Source of the DNA: Burkholderiales bacterium
GTDB lineage: Bacteria; Pseudomonadota; Gammaproteobacteria; Burkholderiales; Ga0077523
Direction: 5' to 3'
Length of the DNA stretch: 35,881 nt
NCBI GenBank assembly: GCA_019747905.1
Contig: JAIEQG010000043.1
Coordinates: forward strand, 1 to 35,881
The notes under the pieces are model-generated. The model was not told where the DNA came from and did not search any database. It saw only the letters and a list, made by a program, of their open reading frames with translations. The stretch's first letter is position 1; each line of letters opens with the position of its first letter. Below, piece after piece: positions 19,074-25,263 of this stretch. A program made the position numbers and the translations under genes.

Positions 19074-21209
19074 ATGGAAACCGCAGCCCGCATCCAGAGC
19101 CAACTCGAGACCAAGGTGGTGAAGGCCGCCTGTCCGCACGATTGCCCCGACGCGTGCGGCATGCACGTCACGGTCAACGTGAAGACCGGCCGCGCCATCA
19201 AGGTGGAGGGCGATCCGACCCATCCCATCACCAAGGGCTACCTCTGCAACAAGGTCAACAACTACGTCGACCTGGTCTACAACGACAATCGCGTCCTCTA
19301 TCCGCGGCGCCGGGTCGGTCCGAAGGGGCCGGGTGCGAAGTTCGAACGCATCAGCTGGGACGAAGCGCTGGACACCGTCGCCGCGCGTCTCAAGGGCGTC
19401 ATCGCCGAATACGGCCCGGAAGCCGTGCAGCCGTACTCCTACTCCGGCACGCTGGGCCTGATCGGCTTCTCCGGCATGGGCGAACGGTTCTTCAACAAGA
19501 TGGGTGCCGCGCGCCTGGACCGCACCATCTGCTCCACAGTCGGCGGAGTAGCCGGCCAGTACACCACGGGCAACGTCCATTCGGCCAACATCGAGGACAT
19601 CCCGGATATGGAGGTGGTGATCCTCTGGGCGACGAACCTCGTGAGCACTGGCGTGCACGCCATGCCGTTCGTGACCGAGGCGCGGGCCCGCGGCGCGAAG
19701 ATCATCGCCATCGATCCGCGCGTCACGCGGACCACGGCCTTCGCCGATTGGCACCTGCAGCCGAAGCCCGGCACCGACGGCGCGCTGGCTCTGGGCATGA
19801 TGCACGTGCTGGTGCGCGAGGGGCTGCACGACATCGAGTTCCTCAAGGCCCATACGGTCGGTTGGGAAGAGCTGCTGCGCGACCGACTGCCGGAGTACAC
19901 GCCGGAGCGCGTTGCGGAAATCACCGGCCTCGCCGTCGAGGACATCGAACGCCTCGGAAAACTGTACGGCAGCACGAAGAAGTCCTTCATTCGCCTCAAC
20001 TACGGCATCCAGCGGCAGGACAACGGCGGCATGACCGTGCGCGCCATCCTGCTGCTGCCGACCCTGACCGGCGCCATGCTCGCGAAGGGCGGCGCCTGCC
20101 TCGGCACCGGGAAGGAACTGCGCAACGTCGACATGCGCAAACTTCAGCGCACCGACCTGCTCGCCGGCCGCAACCCGCGCATGGTCAACATGATCCGCAT
20201 CGGCGAAGCGCTGAACGACTCAACGCTGTCGCCGCCCATCAAGGCGCTGGTGGTGTGGAATGCAGAGCCCGCCAATTGCGCGCCGGATACCGCATCGGTG
20301 CGTCGCGGGCTGATGCGAGAGGATCTCTTCACCGTCGTGCACGACACTTTCTTCACCGACACCTGCGACTACGCCGACATCGTGCTGCCGGCAGACACGA
20401 CGCTGGAACACATGGATCTGGTGGGCGGCTACGGGCATTTCGTGTACGCCCTGTCGCAGCCCGCCATCGACAAGGTGGGCGAGAGCCTCGACAACAGCGA
20501 ACTGTTCCGCCGCCTGGCCGTGAAGATGGGCTACGACGATCCCTGTTTCGCGCAGAGCGACGAGGACATGATCCGCGAGCTGATCGACCCCGAATACAAC
20601 CCGTTGTTCGAGGGTGTCACGTTCGAAGGGTTGATGGAGAAAGGCTGGATGCACGCTGCCGTGGATTCGCCGCGCCGGCCAGGGCTCAACAGCGGCCGCT
20701 GGCCCACCCCTTCGGGGAAGATCGAGATCCGCAGCGAAAGCCTGGGCAAGACCGGGCTCGATCCGCTGCCCGCGTACGTGCCGCCCATCGAGGGCATGGC
20801 GAATCCCGAGGCGACCCGGCGCTACCCGCTGCAGGTGATCAGCGCCGCGACGCACTATTTCATCGGGGCGAGTTTCCAGCACGTGCGGCGGCTGCAGGAG
20901 ATGATGTCGCGCCAGACCTTCGAAGTGTCGGAAGCCGACGCGCGGGCCCGCGGCATCGCGAGCGGCGATGCGTGCCGTCTCTACAACGACCGCGGTGAAG
21001 TGTTCGGGCATGCACTGGTGGTGCCGGGAATGCTGCCCGGCGTGATCGGTGCACCGAAGCAGTTGCAGGGTTCGAAGCAGGTGAACGGGCTCAACGTGAA
21101 TGCGCTGGTGAGCCAGCGCGAAGCCGACATGGGGCACGGGCCGGTGTTCTTCTCCACGCTCGCCGAAATCGAGAAGATCGGCGCGCTTCCGGAGCGCACC
21201 ACGGCATGA
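19074..21209 (+). CDS. Molybdopterin-dependent oxidoreductase (formate dehydrogenase/DMSO reductase superfamily)
   Basis: The product is 711 residues and starts at ATG 19074 behind AGAGG. A 4Fe-4S motif occurs right at the N-terminus: C20-x3-C24-x3-C28-x29-C58 ([16 protein letters not shown]...GYLCNK). The molybdopterin domains follow: [53 protein letters not shown], and a C-terminal cofactor-binding domain. It has no twin-arginine signal, so it is probably cytoplasmic. The residue holding molybdenum is likely within RTICSTVGG (C153 or S154), but I cannot decide which. No selenocysteine codon is apparent. The substrate is unknown; COG0243 members of this kind are often labelled formate dehydrogenase-like or thiosulfate/polysulfide reductase-like. 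It overlaps folD by four bases. Confidence 0.88.
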
Positions 21210-22099
21210 GCGCAACGATCATCGACGGTGTTGCCATCGCCAAGGCGACCCGCGCCGCCTGGCGCGACCGTGCCGACATCCTGCGCGCGCGCGGCGTGAC
21301 GCCGGGGCTCGCCGTCATCATCGTCGGCGACAATGCTGCCTCCAAGGTGTACGTCCGCAACAAGGTCAAGGCCTGCGGCGAGATGGGGTTGCACTCGGAA
21401 CTGATCGAGTACCCGGAGTCGGCGTCGCAACGCGAAGTGCTGGCGCGCATCCAGGCGCTCAACAACGACCCGCGCATCCACGGCATCCTGGTGCAATTGC
21501 CGCTGCCGAAACAGTTCGACGCCGACCAGGTGCTCGAGGCCATCGTGCCTTCGAAGGACGTGGACGGATTTCACGTGGAGAACGCCGGGGCGCTCGCTAC
21601 CGGGCTGCCCGGTTTCTGGCCGTGCACGCCGCATGGCGTGATGGTCATGCTCGAGCATCACAAGGTGCCGCTGCAAGGCGCCGAGGCGGTGGTCGTGGGT
21701 CGCAGCAACATCGTCGGCAAGCCGCAGGCGCTGATGCTGCTCGCGAAGGATGCGACCGTGACCATCTGCACGTCGAAGACGCGCGATCTGGCATTCCATA
21801 CGTGCAGGGCCGACGTGCTGGTGGTCGCCACGGGCAAGCCGAAGATGGTGACCGGCGCCATGATCAAACCGGGCGCGGTCGTGATCGATGTGGGTATCAA
21901 CCGCCTGCCGGACGGCAAGCTGTGCGGCGACGTGGACTTCGAAAGCGCCAAGGAAGTGGCGGGGATGATCACTCCGGTGCCCGGTGGCGTCGGACCGATG
22001 ACCATCACCATGCTGCTCGCCAACACGGTGCTGTCCGCGGAACGCTACGCCGACGGCAGGGTCTCCACGTTTCGGCCGGAGGCAGTTCCGGTCGTGTGA
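21206..22099 (+). CDS. folD: Methylenetetrahydrofolate dehydrogenase / methenyltetrahydrofolate cyclohydrolase
   Basis: The product is 297 residues and interconverts 5,10-methylene-, 5,10-methenyl- and 10-formyl-tetrahydrofolate using NADP(H). The catalytic lysine is K53 in [45 protein letters not shown] and the C-terminal [16 protein letters not shown] are textbook FolD signatures. It starts at ATG 21206, sharing ATGA with the end of the molybdoenzyme gene, and its stop overlaps the next start as TGATG. Translational coupling on both sides suggests that the three products are needed together or at fixed ratio. Co-location with a formate-dehydrogenase-like enzyme hints at one-carbon metabolism, but folD often has unrelated neighbours. 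Confidence 0.96.
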
Positions 22100-22719
22100 T
22101 GTTTGCCGATCGCGCAGTCGCATCCCGCAAACTGGCGGTTGCGCTTGCGCGTTTCCGGAGCGAGCATCCGCTGGTGCTCGGCATTCCGCGTGGCGGCGTG
22201 CCCATGGCCAGGATCATCGCCGACGAGTTGGATTGCGACATCGACGTGGTTCTGGTGCGCAAGCTGCGAGCGCCCGCCAATTCCGAGTACGCTATCGGCG
22301 CCGTGGACGAATCGGGCTGGTCCTTCGTCACGTCCGAGGCCGCATGGGTGCGTCCGTCCCCGGAGTACCTCGAGGAGGAGAAGCGGGCGCAGCTCGAAGT
22401 GATCCTCGAACGGCGCCACGCCTACACCGCGTTGCGACCGCCGATCGATCCGAAGGGGCGGGTCGTCATCGTCGTGGACGACGGGCTTGCTACCGGTTCG
22501 ACCATGATGGCCGCCTTGCATGCACTCGCGGCCAAGCATCCCGCCAGGCTCGTCTGCGCGGTGCCGGTGGCGCCGCCGGACACGGCCGTCAAGATCAAGG
22601 CGTATTGCGACGAAGTCGTTTGCCTGGAGACGCCGCGGGATTTTTCCGCGGTCGGGCAGTTCTACCGGAGCTTTCCGCAGACCACCGACGAGGAAGTGGT
22701 GGCAGCGCTCCAAAGGTGA
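22099..22719 (+). CDS. Phosphoribosyltransferase-family protein (COG1926 type)
   Basis: The product is 206 residues and starts at ATG 22099, one base before the end of folD's stop codon. The fold is type I PRTase: the PRPP-binding motif is VVIVVDDGLATGSTM, with the paired acidic residues and TGST loop. Upstream are LGIPRGGVPMARIIA and VVLVRKLRAPANSEYAIGAV, typical of the COG1926 group of stand-alone predicted phosphoribosyltransferases. The base substrate is unknown. The C-terminus has ETPRDFSAVGQFYRSFPQTTDEEV, conserved in this group. It converges on the radical SAM gene with only 6 bases between the two stop codons. Confidence 0.87.
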   Translation: MFADRAVASRKLAVALARFRSEHPLVLGIPRGGVPMARIIADELDCDIDVVLVRKLRAPANSEYAIGAVDESGWSFVTSEAAWVRPSPEYLEEEKRAQLEVILERRHAYTALRPPIDPKGRVVIVVDDGLATGSTMMAALHALAAKHPARLVCAVPVAPPDTAVKIKAYCDEVVCLETPRDFSAVGQFYRSFPQTTDEEVVAALQR

Positions 22720-22725
22720 GAGCGG

Positions 22726-23814
22726 TCAGCGTGCGGCGAGCCGCACCGGGATCCGCTGCCGCCCGAACTGTCCGTTGAATTCGCCGAAGCGCCCGGCGAT
22801 CCGCGTGCCGCACCGCGGACAAGTGCCTTCCGCGGTCAGGCGATAGAACTCGATGCGGTGCCAGTCGCGCGCGATCAGGCTCGCGGCGCAGTGATGACAG
22901 CGGGTGGTGCCGCCGGCGATATCGTGGACGTTGCCGGTGTAGACGTAGCGCAGGCCTTCGGCCATCGCGATGTCACGGGCGCGCACCAGCGTCGACGCCG
23001 GCGTGGGCGGCAGGTCGGTCATCTTGAAATCCGGATGGAAGGCGGTGAAATGCAGCGGTACGTCCGGCCCGAGGGCCCGGGCGACCCACGCGGACAACGC
23101 GCGCAACTCGTCGTCGGAGTCGTTCTTGGTCGGGATCAGTAACGTCGTGATTTCCACCCACACGTCGGTCTCGTGCACCAGGTACTGCAGCGTGTCGAGC
23201 ACCGGCTGCAGGTGCGAACCGGTCAGCTTCACGTAGAACTCGTCGGTGAAGCCCTTCAGGTCGACGTTGGCCGCGTCCATCTTCGCGTAGAACTCGCGGC
23301 GCGGAGCCTCGTGGATGTAACCGGCCGTCACCGCCACGGTCTTGATGCCGCGCGCGTGGCAGGCGTCGGCCACGTCCATGGCGTACTCGGCGAAGATCAC
23401 CGGGTCGTTGTAGGTGAACGCCACGCTTTTCGAGCCGGTCTGCAGCGCTGCCTCGGCAATGCGGTCGGGGCTCGCCCGGTCCATCAGCCGGTCCATGTCG
23501 CGCGATTTGGAGATGTCCCAGTTCTGGCAGAACTTGCAGGCGAGATTGCAACCGGCGGTGCCGAAGGAGAACACGGCCGATCCCGGGTAGAAGTGGTTGA
23601 GCGGCTTCTTCTCGATCGGATCGACGCAGAACCCGGACGAGCGCCCGTAGGTGGTGAGCACCATGGCGTCGTTCACGCGCTGGCGCACGAAACAGGCGCC
23701 GCGCTGGCCTTCGTGCAGGCGGCAGTCGCGCGGGCACAGGTCGCATTGCAGGCGGCCGTCGTCGAGCAGGTGCCACCAGCGCGCGGGGTATGCGCCTTCT
23801 ACGTTTCCGTCCAC
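22726..23814 (-). CDS. amrS: AmmeMemoRadiSam system radical SAM enzyme
   Basis: The product is 362 residues. The radical SAM cluster motif is C89-x3-C93-x2-C96 (GCNLACKFCQNWD). An N-terminal cysteine cluster CDLCPRDC (24-31) plus C41 is typical of the family. The C-terminus forms a rubredoxin-like zinc ribbon with CHHC and CPRC pairs. DLKGFTDEFYVKLTGSHLQPV and FTAFHPDFKM are also family features. I chose GTG 23814; it overlaps the upstream gene by 16 bases and has no clear ribosome binding site, so it relies on coupled translation. The frame continues upstream only as antisense-like sequence. The family (TIGR04337 as I recall) always accompanies MEMO1- and AMMECR1-type proteins. The reaction catalysed is not established to my knowledge. 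Confidence 0.9.
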   Translation of the reverse strand: MDGNVEGAYPARWWHLLDDGRLQCDLCPRDCRLHEGQRGACFVRQRVNDAMVLTTYGRSSGFCVDPIEKKPLNHFYPGSAVFSFGTAGCNLACKFCQNWDISKSRDMDRLMDRASPDRIAEAALQTGSKSVAFTYNDPVIFAEYAMDVADACHARGIKTVAVTAGYIHEAPRREFYAKMDAANVDLKGFTDEFYVKLTGSHLQPVLDTLQYLVHETDVWVEITTLLIPTKNDSDDELRALSAWVARALGPDVPLHFTAFHPDFKMTDLPPTPASTLVRARDIAMAEGLRYVYTGNVHDIAGGTTRCHHCAASLIARDWHRIEFYRLTAEGTCPRCGTRIAGRFGEFNGQFGRQRIPVRLAAR

Positions 23815-25172
23815 TTGTCGACCGTGTAGCGAGCGACGCGCAGATCGTCCGACCAGAAATCCATCGGCAGCCCGGCCTTGTTCTTCAGATGGGTGAAGAA
23901 ATCCCTCGGCGTCGGCAACGACTCCCACACCTGCGGCAGGAAGGTGCCACGATGACCATCGTATTCCAGGATGAGACCGTCGACCTCGGGACGAAGCTGT
24001 GCGAGCAGGTCGTGTTCGTCGCGGAACGCCATGGGTGCGGGCACCGACAACAGCGACACTTCCACCGTGATCTGGTCGAACTCCCGCAACGACACCGGGC
24101 GAAAGCGCGGATCGAGAAACGCGGCCGAGCGGGCGTTGTGTTTCACGTCGTCCACCAGGGCGCGCCGCGCTTCCAGGCTGCCGATGCAACCGCGCAACCG
24201 GCCCTGGTACTTCAACGTGACGAAGGAAGCGCCGATCTCCTGCAGGAACGGAGCATCGTCGCGCGCCGTCAGCGCGAGGCCGAGCTGGCGGGCGATGGTG
24301 GCGCGCGCCAGGGGCAGCAGCACGGTGCCCTTGTCGGCAGCACCCGCATCGACCGGGCTAGGCATTGCGCCTTCGGTGAACGCCAGCGACGCATAGCCGA
24401 CGACCCGGCTCTTGTCGCCCGCGGTGTCGCCCGAGTTGCACACGTCGAGCAAGGTCGGGGTGAGACCGCGACGGCGCGCCACCAGCAGCAAGCCGTTCAC
24501 CGGTGTCGCGCCACAGGCGTGGTGGTGGTCGATGTGCGGATCGAGCGCCAGCATGTCGTGCACCGTCTGGTGGTCGGTGCGCTGTGCCGTCTGGTAGGGG
24601 AGGTAGTGCGAGAGGTCGGAACTCACCACGATGAGCGTTTCGGCACCGCCCCACAGGTGATCCAGCACTTGCGCGACTTCCTGCGGTGTGGCGTCCCCGA
24701 CCGCGAGCGGCACCAGCGTGAATGCGCCGAGCACCTCCTGCAGGAACGGCAGGTGCACTTCGAGCGAGTGCTCCTGGACGTGGGCCGCCGTGCTCTCGGT
24801 GACCTGCGGCAACGTGCGCAGCGACGTCACGGCTTCGGCGTCCACGGCGATCGGGCCCAGGGGCGTTTCGAACTGTTCGACCCCGGGCAGCGCGAGGCCC
24901 CGCACTGCCACCCGATGACAGGGGCCGAGGAGCACTACGCGCTTGATTCGCCCGCGGAGCCGCGCAATCCGCGCATAGGCCATCGCCGCAACATCGCCCG
25001 AATATACATACCCGGCGTGGGGGGCGATGATAGCCTTGGGCTCGAGCGTATCCGCCGGTGTGCGACGCGAGGCTGAGGCCAGCCGCTCCCGCACGTCGGT
25101 GCGCAGTTGCGATCCGTTGCCGGGATAGAAAGTCCCTGCGACGGCCGCGCGGCGGAGAGTGATCATGCTCAT
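23799..25172 (-). CDS. Fused AmmeMemoRadiSam proteins B and A (MEMO1-AMMECR1)
   Basis: The product is 457 residues, a natural fusion. Residues 1-275 are a MEMO1-type domain of the LigB-dioxygenase fold: AVAGTFYPGN at 10-19, PHAGYVYSG with H52, GPCHRV with H86, SSDLSHYLPY, and C220 in HHHACGATPVNG. H52, H86 and C220 correspond to the metal-binding His-His-Cys set of human MEMO1. Residues about 283-457 are an AMMECR1 domain with the conserved LRGCIG at 326-331 and the C-terminal FLPQVWE..PTPRDFFTHL. I chose ATG 25172 (ATG 25166 is possible) because homologous sequence begins just after it; no good ribosome binding site is visible. The two modules are usually separate genes, which supports physical cooperation with the radical SAM enzyme. 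Confidence 0.9.
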   Translation of the reverse strand: MSMITLRRAAVAGTFYPGNGSQLRTDVRERLASASRRTPADTLEPKAIIAPHAGYVYSGDVAAMAYARIARLRGRIKRVVLLGPCHRVAVRGLALPGVEQFETPLGPIAVDAEAVTSLRTLPQVTESTAAHVQEHSLEVHLPFLQEVLGAFTLVPLAVGDATPQEVAQVLDHLWGGAETLIVVSSDLSHYLPYQTAQRTDHQTVHDMLALDPHIDHHHACGATPVNGLLLVARRRGLTPTLLDVCNSGDTAGDKSRVVGYASLAFTEGAMPSPVDAGAADKGTVLLPLARATIARQLGLALTARDDAPFLQEIGASFVTLKYQGRLRGCIGSLEARRALVDDVKHNARSAAFLDPRFRPVSLREFDQITVEVSLLSVPAPMAFRDEHDLLAQLRPEVDGLILEYDGHRGTFLPQVWESLPTPRDFFTHLKNKAGLPMDFWSDDLRVARYTVDKWTET

Positions 25173-25219: not shown

Positions 25220-25249
25220 TTGACGTCTGCGGTCGCGGGCAACTACATT
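25220..25249 (+). promoter_or_regulatory. Promoter of the tetR-RND operon
   Basis: TTGACG at 25220-25225 and TACATT at 25244-25249 are separated by 18 bases. They match the sigma70 consensus at five of six and four of six positions. The -10 box directly touches the palindromic operator at 25250-25263. Confidence 0.65.
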
Positions 25250-25263
25250 ACTGACCGGTCAGT
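25250..25263. promoter_or_regulatory. Palindromic operator for the TetR-family regulator
   Basis: ACTGACCGGTCAGT is a perfect 14-base palindrome. It lies at the predicted transcription start, between the -10 box (25244-25249) and the regulator start (25282). TGACCGGTCA cores are common among operators of TetR-family repressors of RND pumps. Binding here would block the tetR-RND promoter. It could also affect the divergent AmrB-AmrA gene, which starts 77 bases away on the minus strand. Confidence 0.72.

Follow-up and report, generated by a model that had tools for sequence, protein, structure and literature searches.

A fused MEMO-AMMECR1 protein and its radical SAM partner in a Burkholderiales bacterium: an ordinary AmmeMemoRadiSam pair and a possible joint enzyme system

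What might a fused MEMO-AMMECR1 protein and the radical SAM (S-adenosylmethionine) enzyme encoded directly behind it do together? The question is raised by a gene pair at positions 22726..25172 of a 35,881-nucleotide stretch of DNA from a Burkholderiales bacterium (contig JAIEQG010000043.1, assembly GCA_019747905.1), the whole of which is called the window below. The initial annotation, made from the sequence without database searches, had put the pair forward as its best candidate for an undescribed system. That claim does not hold: the pair is an ordinary, well-preserved member of AmmeMemoRadiSam, a system that is named in NCBIfam (TIGR04335, TIGR04336 and TIGR04337; genes amrA, amrB and amrS) and yet unexplained. 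Its interest stems from this system and from the architectures seen in other genomes, not from the window's own genes. The features of the pair are as follows.

23799..25172, minus strand: MEMO-AMMECR1 fusion gene (amrB+amrA), ATG start, 457 aa, matched by Pfam and NCBIfam
25017..25019, minus strand: codon of H52, metal ligand by homology (human H49), in 59 of 59 rows
24915..24917, minus strand: codon of H86, metal ligand by homology (human H81), in 59 of 59 rows
24513..24515, minus strand: codon of C220, metal ligand by homology (human C244), in 59 of 59 rows
23814..24311, minus strand: AMMECR1 domain (PF01871/TIGR04335), residues 288-453, by Pfam and NCBIfam
24180..24197, minus strand: LRGCIG motif, residues 326-331, conserved in the row alignment
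23799..23814, minus strand: 16-base overlap between the end of the fusion gene and the radical SAM start, the same in loci L038 and L034
22726..23814, minus strand: radical SAM gene (amrS, TIGR04337 by NCBIfam), predicted GTG start, 362 aa
23692..23745, minus strand: N-terminal C24/C27/C31/C41 motif of the radical SAM enzyme, from a 54-row alignment
23527..23550, minus strand: CX3CX2C cluster motif C89/C93/C96, invariant in 54 rows
22810..22899, minus strand: C-terminal C306/C332/C335 of the radical SAM enzyme, invariant in 54 rows

Both halves of the fusion are recognized far beyond chance, as had been claimed for a single polypeptide: Pfam places Memo (E 3e-50) on residues 9-263 and AMMECR1 (E 5e-44) on residues 288-453 of the same 457-residue product, whose open frame also permits an alternative ATG at 25220. 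The three NCBIfam models that the initial annotation had proposed to search all match above their curated cut-offs, with 266.6 bits for TIGR04336 (protein B, MEMO; cut-off 26), 188.8 bits for TIGR04335 (protein A, AMMECR1; cut-off 99) and, for the second gene, 642 bits for TIGR04337 (cut-off 220). In a profile alignment with human MEMO1, H52 and H86 coincide with the histidines of PHAGY and GPxH, and C220 falls in the column that holds Ser in PDB 7m8h, a C244S mutant. The fusion thereby carries the His-His-Cys metal site of the MEMO1 family, aligned to human H49, H81 and C244, the residues given as the iron ligands of human MEMO1 in PMC11081632. Its AMMECR1 part has the LRGCIG motif and the fold of that family, and all of these residues lie where they had first been placed. 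Human MEMO1 (PDB 7kq8, 3bcz) differs from the bacterial protein, which is fused to AMMECR1 and accompanied by a radical SAM enzyme; likewise, the window's AMMECR1 copy differs from other members of its family (PDB 1vaj, 1zq7, 1wsc; human AMMECR1) by its fusion with MEMO. Class III extradiol dioxygenases (LigB, DesB, 2-aminophenol 1,6-dioxygenase) have Glu where MEMO has Cys; the third ligand of the fusion is Cys220 in place of the Glu of their His-His-Glu site, and Pfam LigB is not among its matches at E 0.001. According to PMC11081632, human MEMO1 showed no dioxygenase activity with the substrates tried.

The partner belongs to the radical SAM superfamily by its CX3CX2C motif and PF04055 domain (E 3e-17). 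The closest solved fold to its structural model is that of the pyruvate formate-lyase activating enzyme (3cb8, 3c8f; Foldseek E 1.5e-14 to 3cb8, which has a bound peptide), with which it has CX3CX2C in common, whereas its N- and C-terminal cysteine motifs are extra. Among the former, C24, C31 and C41 are invariant and C27 is kept in at least 90% of the 54 rows, which makes a second metal site possible; for C306/C332/C335 we infer a zinc-ribbon-like role.

The system is known more by name than by function. The gene names amrA, amrB and amrS appear in a passage of PMC9062700, one in PMC7159879 speaks of "recently-described Memo-Ammecr1 systems" with a 2019 paper cited, and the mentions of AmmeMemoRadiSam that were examined are entries in lists or a figure legend, which give no function. 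The initial annotation's remark that the reaction is unknown thus stands, in that no paper giving one was found in the literature searched. No defining feature sets the window apart from the system: protein A and protein B in one polypeptide are a common variant, and a fused amrB followed by amrS is annotated on plasmids of Ideonella dechloratans (NZ_CP088082.1) and Segatella hominis (NZ_CP137560.1). On the Ideonella plasmid the amr genes (L195:7991-10628) lie near arsenic-resistance genes. A 2019 survey of PCAD-Memo domains in J Biol Chem may already describe some of the architectures given here; what we add is that the three domains strongly co-occur in each of two phyla, that a 1,078-codon frame holds all of them in two related genomes, that a LigB domain fills the MEMO slot at one locus and that the window's genome gives no glycyl radical enzyme match.

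Do the three domains belong together beyond this window? Co-occurrence, which the initial annotation had proposed to map, was tallied in 249 genomes of the window's phylum (Pseudomonadota), a sample rich in a few families whose percentages are not general, and in a further 99 from the phylum to which G292 (Planctomycetota bacterium) belongs. In the first, 91 genomes have a radical SAM match over the cut-off, 93 have MEMO, 93 have AMMECR1 and 85 have all three; in the second, the corresponding figures are 50, 61, 53 and 45. The radical SAM enzyme lacks both partners in 4 of its 91 genomes (G022, G130, G200, G217) and in 1 of its 50; among these exceptions, the G217 gene has an internal stop and G130 has only the lower-scoring radical SAM type. 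Conversely, MEMO and AMMECR1 occur without a radical SAM match over the cut-off in 7 of the 249 genomes, all at most 78% complete except one (96%). Lack of linkage is not lack of partners: when MEMO was sought in the genomes of 15 radical SAM loci, 14 with neither partner nearby and one with MEMO and no AMMECR1, it was present in 14 of the 15, including 13 of the 14 whose loci show neither partner in the stretch examined. Of the 11 other genomes in the window's genus, 9 carry the radical SAM gene, each with the fusion beside it. Both MEMO and AMMECR1 also match in three of 14 control genomes, Thermotoga maritima, Methanocaldococcus jannaschii and Methanosarcina acetivorans. These are strict anaerobes; hence, O2 is unlikely to be a required substrate there.

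Two side observations come from the 99-genome sample: G332 and G340 have up to four radical SAM genes over the cut-off, and eight genomes have only a low-scoring MEMO (90-131 bits, frames of 405-479 aa) with no AMMECR1 or radical SAM match over the cut-off. The trio appears self-contained, since no flanking cluster recurs widely: when flanking open reading frames of at least 90 aa were clustered, with clusters overlapping the trio (sense or antisense) judged by position, no other cluster was found in more than 11 of about 100 loci, with flanks of up to 8 kb, many of them shorter. A fourth partner gene was therefore set aside, the largest non-trio cluster covering only 11 loci. Two of the flank clusters we take, by eye, to be mfd and ispD. 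A phosphoribosyltransferase-like frame lies near the trio in seven loci (the window and six others), too few to claim.

Fusion of MEMO and AMMECR1, the frequency of which had likewise been marked for mapping, is common and recurrent. In the 249 genomes, 56 of 114 MEMO places are fused to AMMECR1; a frame-length test had flagged 57, and the call in G056 (299 aa), a frame-length coincidence, was removed by hand. Among 122 distinct fetched MEMO loci, duplicates having been removed from this and the other distinct-locus counts, 37 are fused, 77 have a separate AMMECR1 and 8 have neither or are cut by an edge. A MEMO tree of 111 rows requires 15 changes between the fused and separate states, in a quick reconstruction with weak support and long branches that does not separate gain from loss and leaves out, as do the distances below, L001, L013, L070, L071, L079 and short hits (most second-type MEMO rows). 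The state thus appears to have changed several times. Pairwise distances of the three families correlate (r 0.69-0.74), a result that shared descent alone could give and that we do not use as evidence of coupling. In L185-L187, AMMECR1 lies in open frames of 455-499 aa for which Pfam shows no other domain.

Gene order is less constant. The 16-base overlap in the window is real, and near relatives L038 and L034 repeat it identically, with ATG at the spot of the window's GTG; in agreement with the absence of a ribosome binding site noted at first, no Shine-Dalgarno-like run is seen by eye in the 26 bases upstream of the predicted GTG. The "enforced co-translation" read from this overlap survives in part. 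In 80 of 86 distinct same-strand loci with the radical SAM gene after MEMO and AMMECR1, its codon 14 lies 17-71 nt past the AMMECR1 stop; however, across 146 distinct radical SAM loci a partner is on the same strand in 99, on the opposite strand in 27 and absent from the stretch examined in 20. Co-translation is thus customary in some lineages but not general. Within 3.5 kb, a radical SAM gene accompanies only 12 of the 56 fused places as against 40 of 48 separate adjacent pairs.

A second, diverged radical SAM type was seen at L056-L066, followed by a diverged MEMO-AMMECR1 fusion in 9 of the 11 loci; 9 of these 11 genomes also bear the first type, one by a partial match. Selenocysteine was considered for ten second-type matches (367-397 bits) with an in-frame TGA and rejected: in the 11 second-type loci read, the TGA is simply the stop codon that follows GVW or GVW-x, in most cases within ATGA. 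Further radical SAM relatives at L067, L068 and L069 score 294-304 bits with TIGR04337, with neither MEMO nor AMMECR1 matched in the stretch examined.

Two architectures informative about function come from the phylum of G292:

L175:2958-6137 and L176:2880-6059, plus strand: three-domain open frame in two near-related genomes
L178:2243-4024, plus strand: LigB-AMMECR1 protein of G320, with a radical SAM match that starts within 10 bases of its stop

In the near relatives G349 and G370, a single open frame of 1078 aa contains, in order, the radical SAM domain (about 600 bits), AMMECR1 (131-133 bits), some 200 aa without a Pfam match and MEMO (268-270 bits), in which the His/His/Cys pattern is retained by eye; the two copies are probably one event. 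In G320, a LigB domain (PF02900, E 1e-26, residues 152-403) is fused to AMMECR1 (residues 424-584). Picked by eye against known LigB motifs, its ligands are H155, H199 and E394 (with H322) in protein P0004, a His/His/Glu iron site. PF02900 matches in 17 of the 99 genomes, and L178 alone, over the cut-off, has it in one frame with AMMECR1. The same genome has an ordinary MEMO-AMMECR1 frame and further radical SAM genes. A phmmer search of the L178 LigB domain against the PDB gave one match below E 0.001 (5hee, 7e-6, uncharacterized) and three weaker ones; aligning it to the MEMO rows gave no alignment result. LigB-AMMECR1 proteins also exist in Bacillota.

Co-occurrence in two phyla, repeated MEMO-AMMECR1 fusion and the three-domain frame suggest that the three domains form a single functional unit. 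To this extent the single modification machine suggested by the initial annotation is upheld, at the level of comparative genomics. Starting from the family memberships, metal ligands, LRGCIG loop, CX3CX2C motif, joint occurrence and repeated fusion evident in the sequences, we propose that MEMO, AMMECR1 and the radical SAM enzyme may act together as one enzyme system, a reading to which we give a probability of roughly 0.45. MEMO would hold Fe(II) or another soft metal in its His2-Cys site, and AMMECR1 would work with it, the invariant loop cysteine C329 binding or holding the substrate. The radical SAM enzyme would make a 5'-deoxyadenosyl radical and take a hydrogen from a substrate (a peptide or some widespread small molecule) held by the MEMO-AMMECR1 core; the next redox or bond-breaking step would then fall to the MEMO metal, with no need for O2. 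In favor of this reading we also count the LigB swap, the presence of MEMO in genomes whose radical SAM locus stands apart, the self-contained look of the trio, the matches in anaerobes and the likeness of the radical SAM model to an activating enzyme with bound peptide. A bolder form, which we consider quite doubtful, would have one radical/iron enzyme, sometimes a single polypeptide, in which the MEMO slot is a catalytic iron site that a ring-opening LigB domain can fill; the ancestral reaction would be O2-independent, with the SAM radical supplying the reactive step, and in humans two of its three parts would survive as MEMO1 and AMMECR1, still acting together.

Several observations weigh against a joint enzyme. 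No product, substrate or complex is known. The genomes are related, so that the tallies are not independent draws, and in the 99-genome sample 6 of 53 AMMECR1-bearing genomes lack a radical SAM match over the cut-off, G302 and G330 among them having partial matches below it. The domains also part company: Haloferax volcanii matches AMMECR1 and not MEMO, Thermus composti matches MEMO and not AMMECR1, and G174 has the radical SAM enzyme and MEMO with no AMMECR1. To our knowledge, MEMO and AMMECR1 are retained in humans and yeast, which lack the radical SAM enzyme, so that the MEMO-AMMECR1 core serves some purpose on its own. In the three-domain proteins the AMMECR1 loop is LRSCCG; hence, the first glycine and the isoleucine of the motif are not essential. 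For the LigB swap there is a single locus in a single genome, for the three-domain frame there are two near relatives, and the predicted structure of the fusion (predicted template modelling score 0.76) has a low-confidence linker at 272-276.

The main rival, rather unlikely in our estimation, is that the radical SAM enzyme is a maturase. Like the pyruvate formate-lyase activating enzyme, whose target is a glycine in a protein, it would modify a protein or peptide, most simply MEMO-AMMECR1 itself (for example at the LRGCIG cysteine or at a glycine), and the modified protein would then do the job. The pattern of a radical SAM enzyme rarely found without MEMO or AMMECR1 (4/91 and 1/50 genomes), while these occur without it, fits a shared substrate or a maturase alike. 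The apparent persistence of both partners in eukaryotes without the enzyme means that the modification is not needed there, and the Ser in place of the loop's first glycine in the three-domain proteins also speaks against a maturase. It is favored, however, by the fold match to an activating enzyme with bound peptide and by the tethering of the radical SAM domain to AMMECR1 in the three-domain frame, as well as by passages that assign a related radical SAM domain to systems for processing peptides (PMC7159879) and describe predicted fusions of recognition elements for RiPPs (ribosomally synthesized and post-translationally modified peptides) with Memo-like proteins (PMC12710340).

We regard as improbable that MEMO-AMMECR1 is instead a module for iron or copper handling or protection that serves the radical SAM enzyme or cellular iron supply and takes no part in catalysis. 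Radical SAM enzymes do need Fe-S clusters, and human MEMO1 is described in PMC11081632 as binding iron and affecting iron homeostasis; yet the co-occurrence tested is with one radical SAM family, a LigB dioxygenase domain can fill the MEMO place (at one locus), and a metal chaperone role leaves AMMECR1 unexplained. That adjacency reflects only shared regulation of unrelated genes is very improbable: gene order does vary (same strand, opposite strand, unlinked), but the co-occurrence holds when the genes are unlinked too, and repeated fusions, including the three-domain frame, are hard to square with it. That the enzyme activates a separate glycyl radical enzyme encoded at another locus is hardly tenable, and a classical activase role is rejected for the window's genome. 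A likeness to activases is seen in TIGR02493 and in the structure of the pyruvate formate-lyase activating enzyme, but TIGR02493 gives 60.9 bits against a cut-off of 231.75, no PF01228 match is found in that genome (91.5% complete), and 13 of the 91 radical SAM-bearing genomes have such a match, with no association (Fisher p 0.55).

Around the pair, a perfect 14-base palindrome, ACTGACCGGTCAGT, lies at 25250-25263 between the fusion and a divergent TetR-family gene and recurs upstream of the fusion in L034 and L038; it is probably a TetR operator, although 15 of 100 shuffles gave a match with at most two mismatches. On the other side, the stretch 19074-22719 (plus strand) holds overlapping genes for a molybdopterin oxidoreductase, for FolD and for a phosphoribosyltransferase; the phosphoribosyltransferase gene and the radical SAM gene stand tail to tail, their ends 6 bases apart.

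The human proteins MEMO1 and AMMECR1, whose molecular function is unknown, have been linked to cancer metastasis and to a developmental disorder. The bacterial pairing, above all where the three domains share a frame or LigB replaces MEMO, predicts that the two would be parts of one catalyst, and these two architectures offer single-polypeptide material in which complex formation, metal dependence and SAM chemistry may be tested.
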